From contig JAJCYR010000042.1 in assembly GCA_029262775.1 (NCBI GenBank), positions 22,812 to 86,811 on the forward strand: DNA of 64,000 nucleotides, read 5' to 3'. The notes under the pieces were generated by a model. The model had not been told where the DNA came from, ran no database searches, and saw only the letters and a program-made list of their open reading frames with translations. A program made the position numbers and the translations under genes. Below are positions 2,822-55,507 of this stretch, piece after piece (the stretch's first letter is position 1; each line of letters starts with the position of its first letter). The stretch is from Bacteroidota bacterium. GTDB lineage: Bacteria > Bacteroidota > Rhodothermia > Rhodothermales > UBA10348.

Positions 2822-3105
2822 GTGAGGCACCTGAACGAAGGGGCTGAAGATCCAATATCTCTGTTTGTACCAACGACGGTCCGTTTCGGTTCACTGGGAC
2901 CGGCGGCAGAGTTACTACCAGCCAATCCGCGTCCCAATTCCGCCATTTCAAGCTCCAGTTCCGGCAGAGGCGAATCCGTAAGAAGGAACTCAACCGCCTC
3001 CTGCATCTTGTCGAAGTCCTTTCCACGCTCTTTCATGCGCTTGGCGTCCTTCTTGAACCGGGAGGTTCTTCAACACGCTTCTAAATCTTTCATGAGCGCT
3101 GCGAC
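2750..3105 (-). pseudogene. Decayed YafQ/RelE-like toxin with C-terminal end of its antitoxin
   Basis: RTSRFKKDAKRMKERGKDFDKMQEAVEFLLTDSPLP without a start codon, then frameshifted (NWDADWLVV in another frame); preceded by antitoxin-like FDSVAALMKDLEAC*. Confidence 0.55.
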
Positions 3106-48211: not shown

Positions 48212-49219
48212 CTACCGCTTAACCCACTGCTCCAGAAGCGCTGCGAACTCCGCCACCGTGGCCGTACGAATGGACGCCCGATGCAATTCCTTGCATAGTG
48301 CAATATCCTTCTGGGCGGTGACGGTATTCTGGACAGATTGGGGTACCGAGCCAAAACGTAGTACCAGGACGTCAAGAATATTTTCCTGGGCGACTTGCAA
48401 GCGGCCTTGCTCCAAGCCTTGCTCCAAGCCTTGCTTCATTCCCTTCTCCAAGCCCTGCTTCAATCCCTTCTCCATACCTCTCTCGAGGCCAATTCGCTCA
48501 AAACTCGTCACGTATGCCATTTTCTTGTCCTCCTCTGAGTTTGCCAACAGCGTATGCAATTGCCGGTCAAGTTCTTCAGGCAGACGCACCGCCCAGTCCA
48601 TGAATTTCAGCAATTGTCTGGTCTCCTTTCTCGAAGCCCCAAATCGATATAAACTTCGCATGGCCTGAAGTTTCCAGCGTCCGCGCTCCGACATGTCATT
48701 GGCGGTCTCCTGAGCCTTGAGCAGGGCGAGAGTGAGGAGTGCAAACGGATTTTTGCTCGAGCGCAATTCATCGGCACGCACCTGGAAATCCAACAATTTT
48801 GCTGTCGGGTACCGGAACGTCAACTCGCAGCCCCATAACTTGTGACCATAGATCCCCGGTCGCCAGCTGACATCCGAGTCTGCCAGCAGCGCAAGACTTG
48901 CGACGCCGCATCGGTACCGATCAATGATACGGTAGTGGTACGTCCACATCCGGCGTGAAAAGTCGCTATCAGCTCGACTTTGAATCTCGACATGAACGAG
49001 TACAAGAGCCTGATCACCATCGAGACGGCGCACTTCGATGAGCTTGTCAACGAACCGGGTGCCCGTTTCATTGTCCCTGTTGAGTTTCGACAACTCCTTG
49101 TCGCGCACGTTGAATCCTACCTTCCAGTCAATGCCGGCATGCTCCTGCGGAAAAAAAAGCGCCATGAAGTCCTCGAAAAAAACGTCGAGCACTTCTTTCC
49201 AGAATCCGTCCTCTGCCAC
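48212..49219 (-). CDS. Rpn-family (PD-(D/E)XK, YhgA/DUF4351-like) nuclease
   Basis: FFEDFMALFFPQEHAGIDWKVGF...ALVLVHVEIQSRADSDFSRRMWTYHYRIIDRY; RGMEKGLKQGLEKGMKQGLEQGLEQG repeat. Confidence 0.82.
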   Translation of the reverse strand: MAEDGFWKEVLDVFFEDFMALFFPQEHAGIDWKVGFNVRDKELSKLNRDNETGTRFVDKLIEVRRLDGDQALVLVHVEIQSRADSDFSRRMWTYHYRIIDRYRCGVASLALLADSDVSWRPGIYGHKLWGCELTFRYPTAKLLDFQVRADELRSSKNPFALLTLALLKAQETANDMSERGRWKLQAMRSLYRFGASRKETRQLLKFMDWAVRLPEELDRQLHTLLANSEEDKKMAYVTSFERIGLERGMEKGLKQGLEKGMKQGLEQGLEQGRLQVAQENILDVLVLRFGSVPQSVQNTVTAQKDIALCKELHRASIRTATVAEFAALLEQWVKR

Positions 49220-52439: not shown

Positions 52440-53430
52440 TCAATCGTCAACAAGGCCGGTCATCTGCGCCGAAAATTCCTCCATGGAACTGGCACGGATA
52501 GCCGCCCTGTGCAATTTTTTACAGATTTCGACCTCCAAGACGCTACCTATCACGTTCTTTACAGACTCAGGAACGCTACCAAATCGGATGTCAAGGGTAT
52601 CCAGCACACTTTCCTGGGCGTAGCTCAGGCGCCCCTGTTCCATTCCTTTCTCCATTCCTTTCTCCATCCCTTTCCGGATGCGGGAGTATCCGCATTCATA
52701 TAAATTTCTAAGAGCATGAAGTTTCCAGCGGCTTCGCTCTGCAATAGCACGCTCTCCGCCCGCAGTGGTCTCCTGCGCCTTGAGAATAGCCAGCACCAGG
52801 AGTGCAAATGGGTTACTGCTTGCAGCGAGTTGGTCCTCCTGGCCCCGAAAATCCAGCAGCTTCGCCGCTGGGAAAACGAATCGAAGTCGGCATCCCCAGA
52901 AGCGTGTTGAAGAACCAGCGTGCACCAAGATGCGAGCGCCGGAATGCCAGATGCAAGGCGTCCCGACGCCGAATAGCAGCGCTATTCGAAGGAGGGACAA
53001 CGCAGTAGATGGCGTTTCGCCGCCGCAGAAGGGTGTGTGATGGGTTTTCAACACGCTTCCAAAGTTCCGTCTGGAAGGCACCGGATCGCCAGGCGGTATC
53101 GGAGTCGGCGAGTAGTGCCAAGCTGACAACATCCGCCCCGTATCGGTCAAGGAGTCGGTAGTAGTAGGTGAACATACGCCGCGCAAAATCGCCATCGGGG
53201 TGACTTTGCACTTCGATGTGGACCATGACGAGTGCCGGCCCACCTCCAAACCGTTTGACCTCCACCAGTTTGTCCACAAAACGCGCTCCGGTTCGGTTGT
53301 CCCGATTCAGCTTTGAGAGCTCCTTGTCTCGCGACTTGAAGCCAGCGCACCAGTCTATACCTGCATGAGCCGCCGGAAAAAGCAGCGCCATGAAGTCCTC
53401 GAAAAACGCATACCGCCGCCATGCTCACGC
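52440..53430 (-). pseudogene. Rpn-family nuclease, disrupted by 160-bp insertion and 5'-truncated
   Basis: RYAFFEDFMALLFPAAHAGIDWCAGFKSRDKELSKLNRDN...AWRSGAFQTELW | insertion | GCRLRFVFPAAKLLDFRGQEDQLAASSNPFALLVLAILKAQE in a second frame; paralog of 48212..49219. Confidence 0.85.
52899..53058. mobile_element. MITE-like non-autonomous element
   Basis: Terminal inverted repeats GAAGCGTGTTGAAGAACC / GGTTTTCAACACGCTT, flanked by CCA target duplication; internal hairpins CGAATAGC-AGC-GCTATTCG and GGCGTC-CC-GACGCC; excision restores ELW-GCRLRF. Confidence 0.8.
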
Positions 53431-53766: not shown

Positions 53767-54561
53767 ATGACACGTTCGATTCCGACTTGGCTGACACCTA
53801 TTACCCAAGAGCTCGAGTTGGAGCGACCGGCGGTCGTAACCACGGACTATATAGCCGATTTGCGACATAAATTCGGAGTGAGTCCTCCACCGAACCGGAT
53901 AATTGAACATCTCTCCGAACGCGGATGGTTGCTGAAAACCGGAATTCGTGGCGCTTGGGAGTTCATTCCTGCTGAAAGAGCCAGCGCCCTCTCGGCAGGT
54001 AGTCCACTCCTTGAATTGAAAGGGGCACTCGCGCTCGCACACGACCTGCCTGTTGCATTGGCTCTGGGTTCTGCTCTTTGGATGTACGACCTGGCCGATC
54101 GTCCTCCTGAGCCTCATGAGATTGCCATACCATCGCGCATGCACCTACCAATCGGCCTGCGTCGCACATACCGAATCGTGCGCCACTCCATACATACCGA
54201 TTTGAGAATCGTTGAGAACCTCCCCGTTCATAGCCCAGCTTCCGTTTTAGTGCATCTTGCAAGCCGCCCATCTGACGTTCGCAGTTGGTCCAGTGTTATT
54301 GAAGCCCTCCCAGAACTGATGTCAATGGCAGACAAGACAGACATCCTGGTGGAACTGGAGGGGCGGTCTCATGCTACCAACGTGCGCTTTGCATACCTAT
54401 ATGAACACATCGCTCCCGAGTTGATCCACGAACTCCGTATCGAGCCTGCTGGCAAGGTCTGGTTTGGCCCACGAGGTCGCCTGCGTAGACATAGTAGTCA
54501 TTGGAATCTGGCAGACACAGTCCTTCCGGTCGCCCCAGGTACGACCCGCCCCACAGCATGA
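53767..54561 (+). CDS. AbiEi-family antitoxin/transcriptional repressor
   Basis: N-terminal winged-helix-like, LALAHDLPVALALGSALWMYDLADRPPEPHEIAIPSRMHLPIGLRRTYRIVRHS...ENLPVHSPASVLVHL; ATGA overlap with toxin. Confidence 0.82.
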   Translation: MTRSIPTWLTPITQELELERPAVVTTDYIADLRHKFGVSPPPNRIIEHLSERGWLLKTGIRGAWEFIPAERASALSAGSPLLELKGALALAHDLPVALALGSALWMYDLADRPPEPHEIAIPSRMHLPIGLRRTYRIVRHSIHTDLRIVENLPVHSPASVLVHLASRPSDVRSWSSVIEALPELMSMADKTDILVELEGRSHATNVRFAYLYEHIAPELIHELRIEPAGKVWFGPRGRLRRHSSHWNLADTVLPVAPGTTRPTA

Positions 54562-55507
54562 TTGGAAAAGATCACACACTGACATCAGGTCATGTCAGCC
54601 GTCATATACCGCCAGCGTCACGCGTGGGAGTCGACATTGCACTTCTCGACATCGCCCAGGATTTTTTACTGGCTCACCTGTGCGAGCGTCAGGTAATTGG
54701 TGGTCTGGTCGTCTTTAAGGGTGGCACGGCCCTTAGAAAGTTATACGCAGGAACGACGGGACGTTTTTCAACAGATATGGATTTCGCCTCACTTGAGGCG
54801 CATGAAAACCGTGTTGACCTTGCGGATGTCATCGCTGAAGAATGTCAGGTCACGCTGGGACCTTTTCAGTTTGAGCCGACAAATGCGCGGGGACGGTGGC
54901 GTATACGTGTCTCCAGCCCTTTCGGGAATCCGACCGTCACGATAAAAATAGACATCAGGACCTCCTTGCTGGCTTCAACCCGGTGTGAGACCCGTAGTAT
55001 CCGTGCCTATCCATGGCCGGTACGGATTTTCCATGCCAGCCATCACTTCCATGCGTCTGGAGGAAATTCTTGCGGAGAAAATCGCCCGCCTGACGCGTGT
55101 TTCAACGGCAAGGGACGCGTTCGACCTGGTGTGGGGCAGCCACAACATCTCCGCACTCCGGATTCTCAAACACAGTCGTGCGACACATTGCAATTCTCAA
55201 AGTCTGGGTAGATTATAATGGCCTTCGTCCCGGATGGGCGAAAGCCTTGAGTCCTCAGACGTTTGATCCGGAGCGCTGGTTCACGTACCGAACGCACTGG
55301 GATGATGAACAGATCGGACTGTTATCACACCCTCCTCCACCCCTGTCACAGCTTGAATCTGATTTGCACACGTACTTTCATTGGCTTCGCAATATGACTG
55401 ACTCGGAATCGCAGTGGGCAACCTGCGACCAGAATAGCCGTGGTGATGTCATCGACGCCATTCGTCGCTTGGAGAATGGAGCTCAGGCAGATACCCACTT
55501 GTGGTGA
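54558..55507 (+). pseudogene. AbiEii-family nucleotidyltransferase toxin, two apparent frameshifts
   Basis: VVFKGGTALRKLYAGTTGRFSTDMDFAS (frame 1); MRLEEILAEKIARLTRVSTARDAFDLVWG (frame 2); VRHIAILKVWVDYNGLRPGWAKAL (frame 3). Confidence 0.82.

Follow-up and report, generated by a model that had tools for sequence, protein, structure and literature searches.

A short hairpin MITE within an Rpn-like nuclease gene carries a folded core that recurs in Bacteroidota elements with other ends

Results

A 159-bp MITE splits an Rpn-like nuclease gene

What is the short non-coding segment that interrupts an Rpn-like nuclease gene in the 64,000-nucleotide stretch of Bacteroidota DNA analysed here (the window), what could have moved it there, and why does it fold into a hairpin? 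Aligned copies set the limits of the segment at AAGCGTGTTGAA ... TTCAACACGCTT, window positions 52900-53058 (159 bp; we use the + strand, which has the conserved fold). The element itself, originally predicted as 160 bp at 52899-53058, is real, but that start and length were wrong. As predicted, it has no transposase inside and is bounded by terminal inverted repeats of 17 bp, AAGCGTGTTGAAGAACC on the left (52900-52916, +) and AAGCGTGTTGAAAACCC on the right (53042-53058, -), the right being the inverse of the left with one mismatch. In MITE-A, as we call the element type of the window, both ends carry the same outermost 12 bp (AAGCGTGTTGAA).

Within G000, the assembly that contains the window (3.3 Mb in 103 contigs; other G numbers denote other genomes and L numbers denote loci), a 176-base query around the finding had 46 matches. 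The best E value was 1e-87, far above chance, and about a dozen of the 46 matches have at least 97% identity. Many of them lie at contig ends, indicating that the element breaks the G000 assembly. Complete MITE-A copies come chiefly in two lengths, 159-162 bp and 177-178 bp, that differ in the apical hairpin, and deletion forms of 105 bp also occur. Copies are present in two of three genus mates, and G001 and G003 carry many, which bears out the expectation that the element would be found elsewhere. Public records hold copies in the Bacteroidota MAGs OFTM130 and CG12 and on one contig binned as Amylibacter (MAG OFTM131, a name that resembles OFTM130), which is perhaps mis-binned; a search of viral contigs gave no match. 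The segment is a real MITE, far beyond chance: short, non-coding, multicopy, and bounded by terminal inverted repeats and a target-site duplication. As a MITE it is of an ordinary kind.

The interrupted gene lies on the - strand. Its 5' part (53063-53391) is a weak match to TIGR01784, below the cut-off, with uninterrupted homologs, and its 3' part (52440-52899) comes into the same frame only once the element is taken out. Removal of the 159 bp plus 4 bp reopens the frame with the junction TELW-GCRLRF, and this junction aligns gap-free to five uninterrupted homologs, one of which is a paralog with 80% identity over residues 1-184. The proposed restoration of the frame on removing the element and one target copy therefore holds, and paralogs and relatives that span the junction provide uninterrupted homologous sites. 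The gene (52440-53391, -) also lacks about 45 residues (RFLDWAVRLP...TSFER) found in the compared homologs, a loss that shows decay separate from the insertion. A second Rpn paralog, this one without interruption and with 63% identity, is located 4 kb away at 48626-49165 (-). Beside the broken gene, at 53767-55211, adjacent genes resemble by eye an AbiEi/AbiEii-type pair, and two adjacent small genes at 1776-2358 of the window resemble, also by eye, a VapBC-type toxin-antitoxin pair.

MITE-A is flanked by a 4-bp target-site duplication

The target-site copies in the window are CCAG (52896-52899) and CCAA (53059-53062), alike at 3/4 bases. Permutation testing of 27 complete copies gave 8 identical pairs of 4-bp flanks vs 1.9 expected (p = 0.0005), whereas flank lengths of 2, 3 and 5-8 bp reached no significance. 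This test excludes the 3-bp CCA duplication originally described, and the duplication is instead 4 bp. Taken singly, the outer flank positions also reach significance (p = 0.004 for position 1 and 0.007 for position 4), and these matches exclude a 2-bp TA duplication for MITE-A. The duplication is family-wide with the consensus YTAR, which the copies in the window resemble, and it is imperfect in most complete copies.

Smaller pieces of the element were also observed. A lone perfect 17-bp end, AAGCGTGTTGAAGAACC, at 3064-3080 (-) of the window is preceded by TTAG, has no partner end and is a remnant. A 45-bp mini-element (L055:1216-1260) comprises little beyond two ends and lies between perfect TTAA copies. 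End fragments of about 30 bp, AAGCGTGTTGAAAAACCATCACACACCCTT, occur at L030:3988-4017 and L058:536-565 and also in L050-L053 and L057. All of these stop at the same base and are flanked by YTAR-like 4-mers, two of them perfect (CTGG, TTAG); they arose either by deletion between CACACCCTT and CAACACGCTT or as very small insertions. The palindrome AATGTAACTTTTATTGTTACATT lies beside two unrelated MITE copies (the right flank of L017; L052 from about 1353) and is either a further small repeat or a target common to both.

An intact IS in the same genome has the ends of MITE-A

We identified an intact IS of 1464 bp in G000 (L048:680-2143) that has 12/12 bp of the MITE ends at both of its ends and is flanked by TTAA on both sides, a 4-bp duplication of the YTAR type. 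An IS sharing the terminal repeats, as anticipated, is thus present in the same genome. It encodes a 465-aa transposase with DUF772 and DDE_Tnp_1, which scores 262.8 bits against the NCBIfam model NF033551 (IS1182, cut-off 270) and 176.8 bits against NF033581 (IS5_4, cut-off 140). Because the transposase falls just under the IS1182 cut-off and above the IS5 one, we call it IS1182/IS5-like. The IS is single-copy in G000 and has only 12-13 bp in common with the MITE. No further IS with MITE-A ends was found besides L048, and only fragments were found when an intact L048 relative was sought in the genus mates G001 and G003. The intact IS1182 of G003 (L180) was rejected as a partner, its ends GAGTCCGTCGGACT being unrelated. 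Prokaryotic MITEs generally have fewer than 20 nt in common with their IS, and the literature includes an IS1182-associated MITE of 160 bp that has a 4-bp duplication (PMC3852290). Since likeness confined to the terminal repeats is normal and has a precedent of this kind, the reading of a trans-mobilised MITE stands; judging from the shared ends, the IS transposase would mobilise the MITE in trans.

The fold of one strand appears to be selected

The + strand of the whole element forms one hairpin (-87.1 kcal/mol, z = -8.6), and the opposite strand folds less stably (-69.4 kcal/mol, z = -6.1). The same strand folds better in 28/28 full copies. The short internal hairpins noted in the original prediction are present, but both belong to this single hairpin spanning the whole element. 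Among 28 copies, two-sided changes that preserve pairing occur at 19 of 60 pairs, counted over sequences and not as independent events, and none of 500 shuffles reached this number. The terminal repeats covary too, at 11 of 26 pairs of helix 1. Compensatory changes therefore go beyond those in the controls.

Mismatches between the two arms were counted on an alignment of the arms that treats both strands alike. In 28 related copies, whose counts are not independent, we found 290 G.A vs 9 T.C and 179 G.T vs 50 A.C mismatches; for the window copy alone the counts are 12:0 and 7:2. The mismatches include tandem G.A loops, and much of the asymmetry is interior. As the element occurs in both orientations, a palindrome without strand-specific selection should show no such asymmetry, suggesting that the fold of one strand is selected. 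These strand-specific non-canonical pairs come from copies that share ancestry, and single-stranded DNA would give the same sign. A conserved Shine-Dalgarno site or peptide was excluded: the ribosome-site-like AGGAGG becomes AGGAGTGAC or AGGCGTGAC in MITE-B with pairing kept, which points to structure and not to translation. According to a heuristic gene caller applied to 37 copies, the strand with the conserved fold is mostly antisense to co-directional flanking genes (12 vs 2; uncorrected and weak), a tendency that does not favour simple mRNA read-through.

The folded core recurs under other ends

The conserved core of the window element, at 52954-53005 (+), reads CAAGGC-GTCCC-GA-C-GC, then the hairpin CGAATAGC-AGC-GCTATTCG, then AA-G-GA-GGGAC-AA-C-GCA-G. 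The core motif (about 100 nt) is C-AA-G-GC-G ... TAGC-GCTA ... AA-C-GNN-G, and with compensatory changes it is also found in MITE-B, G009, G032, G044, G083, G055, G107 and G031. A covariance model built from MITE-A (R1) picked up structural relatives in the same family, namely MITE-B and nine copies in G009. MITE-B is about 316 bp with ends AAGGCTGTTGAA or AAGCGTGTTGAA and is nested in the apical part of MITE-A (L026:2053-2144, L027:2013-2366 and L034:1-222, among L026-L034). The nine G009 copies have other ends, TGCTTAGTCGGATAAATC, and mostly CTAG flanks. Common to MITE-A, MITE-B and the G009 elements is AAGGCGTNCCGACG-hairpin-AGGAGGNACAACG, in which the core stems are compensatory (GTCCC/GGGAC, GTGCC/GGTAC, GTTCC/GGAAC, GTCAC/GTGAC), and 22 of 35 core pairs covary across 30 sequences drawn from several types of element.

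A second model (R2), built from the core with other families left out, was run at E <= 1e-5 on 114 genomes of the order; it matched six genomes of other families and nothing in 100. Most matches in other families are full hairpins of 157-164 bp, bounded by terminal inverted repeats and flanked by YTAR. R2 covers the core alone, and the terminal repeats, YTAR flanks and full-length hairpin are features outside the model. Such bounded hairpins are clear in G032, G044, G055 and G107; boundaries are poorer in G083, and none is clear in G031. No autonomous IS with GCTGTGTTTGA ends was evident in G107. In an order-wide alignment of 20 sequences, built from hand-checked stretches, two-sided changes occur at 25 of 35 pairs (score 0.478, against 0.169 after shuffling and no more than 0.144 after sliding), and the unpaired loop bases AA, GC/AA and AAC are invariant across families. 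The third model (R3), which has the window copy in its training set and matches the window at 52930-53028 (+), was run on 396 genomes of the phylum and matched G258, G262 (8 copies) and G207 outside the order (E 1e-8 to 1e-5). These matches carry a related AGGC ... TAGC-GCTA ... AACG pattern and are weaker and provisional. An Rfam family was excluded for the window and eleven related loci, which gave no match passing a gathering score.

The single-contig complete genome G032 contains a 159-bp MITE whose ends, CTAGTGCTGCGTCAAG, also occur at six or more places as pairs with a spacing of 1219 bp. The 1219-bp units are IS elements with two open frames that score 111 bits for the IS630 family (cut-off 100) and match DDE_3. 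The likeness of MITE and IS extends over 16 bp, the CTAG flank counted in, and ends there; for this IS630-linked type, the CTAG flanks are ambiguous between a 2-bp TA and a 4-bp duplication. The G032 MITE resembles the window element in its homologous hairpin core and its length but differs in its ends (TGCTGCGTCAAG) and transposase family. Because the G032 MITE has the ends of an IS630-family IS, the homologous core carries the ends of two transposase families.

Discussion

We consider it probable that the window element is a MITE mobilised by an IS1182/IS5-like IS and built around an old folded core that is selected on one strand and is elsewhere mobilised by IS630. The transposase of the IS elsewhere in the genome would recognise the 12-bp ends AAGCGTGTTGAA, cut out or copy the MITE, and integrate it into YTAR-like targets, duplicating 4 bp; the Rpn gene would have been split by an insertion of this kind that has since partly decayed. 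The 135-base interior would not be filler, the central ~100 nt of the hairpin being the putative old core. Selection would keep the fold of one strand, most simply as RNA upon transcription and possibly as single-stranded DNA, and we infer that the constraint acts on RNA. The core would have persisted while its ends changed and, in a different lineage, would have been moved by an IS630-family transposase.

The fold could instead be conserved as single-stranded DNA or as a cruciform, through replication, excision, or binding of the transposase or a host factor. The antisense position of the conserved strand (12 vs 2) and the covariation of the terminal repeats (11/26 pairs in helix 1) would fit such a role, and G.T wobbles and tandem G.A mismatches are stable also in DNA hairpins. 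However, IS1182- and IS630-type DDE transposases work on double-stranded ends, which predicts no strand asymmetry, and much of the asymmetry is interior; we regard conservation as DNA as rather unlikely. Considerably more improbable is that the hairpin is the by-product of an inverted duplication, its paired changes copied by template switching between the arms without selection. Some single copies do have the same change at both ends (AAGCCCG in L150, AAGCGTTTT in L016), but template switching would yield perfect, strand-symmetric complements, whereas G.A and G.T mismatches are kept and are strongly one-sided, and unpaired loop bases are conserved across families.

A different doubt concerns L048, since the MITE-A copies could have been moved by another IS, lost or missing from the assembly, whose ends match over a greater length. 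Just 12-13 bp are common to the MITE and L048, and G001 and G003 are rich in MITE copies yet gave no intact L048 relative. On the other hand, such short likeness is general among prokaryotic MITEs (PMC3852290), L048 has a 4-bp duplication of the YTAR type, and no second IS with these ends turned up, so that a lost IS seems to us a doubtful source.

The window element can be compared with known systems. MITEs associated with ISMac2 (IS1182 family) in Methanosarcina acetivorans are 160 and 169 bp with several copies (PMC3852290 Table 4). The 160-bp one resembles the window element in having 4-bp duplications and ends in common with an IS1182-family IS, but these MITEs are archaeal. ERIC, NEMIS (Correia), RUP and bcr1 are short MITEs with robust secondary structures that can affect neighbouring transcripts (PMC3733652). 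Their sequences and hosts are different (sequences were compared via Rfam alone, with no match), and unlike in these MITEs the core described here is common to elements with ends of different transposase families. REP/REPIN sequences with RAYT (IS200/IS605-type) transposases (PMC3116915) are likewise small structured mobile DNA without a transposase of their own, whereas the window MITE has true terminal inverted repeats, 4-bp duplications, and DDE and not Y1 transposases.

The usual view of bacterial MITEs is that they derive from IS copies by deletion and share the fate of a single transposase. In the elements described here the ends differ from lineage to lineage while the folded core is recognisable across families of the order and possibly the phylum, which separates the needs for movement from what is kept for another reason. 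What would surprise a specialist is a covarying, strand-specific core that recurs under the ends of unrelated transposons; this recurrence suggests that the fold itself, beyond the ends, is kept. We tentatively propose, with slightly less than even confidence, that an old Bacteroidota family of folded elements persists by joining its hairpin core to the ends of active transposons, IS1182/IS5-like ones here and IS630 in G032, with the function of the core kept by selection. The core offers a concrete motif that can be tested, and an alignment, with which to ask if small mobile hairpins function at the RNA level.
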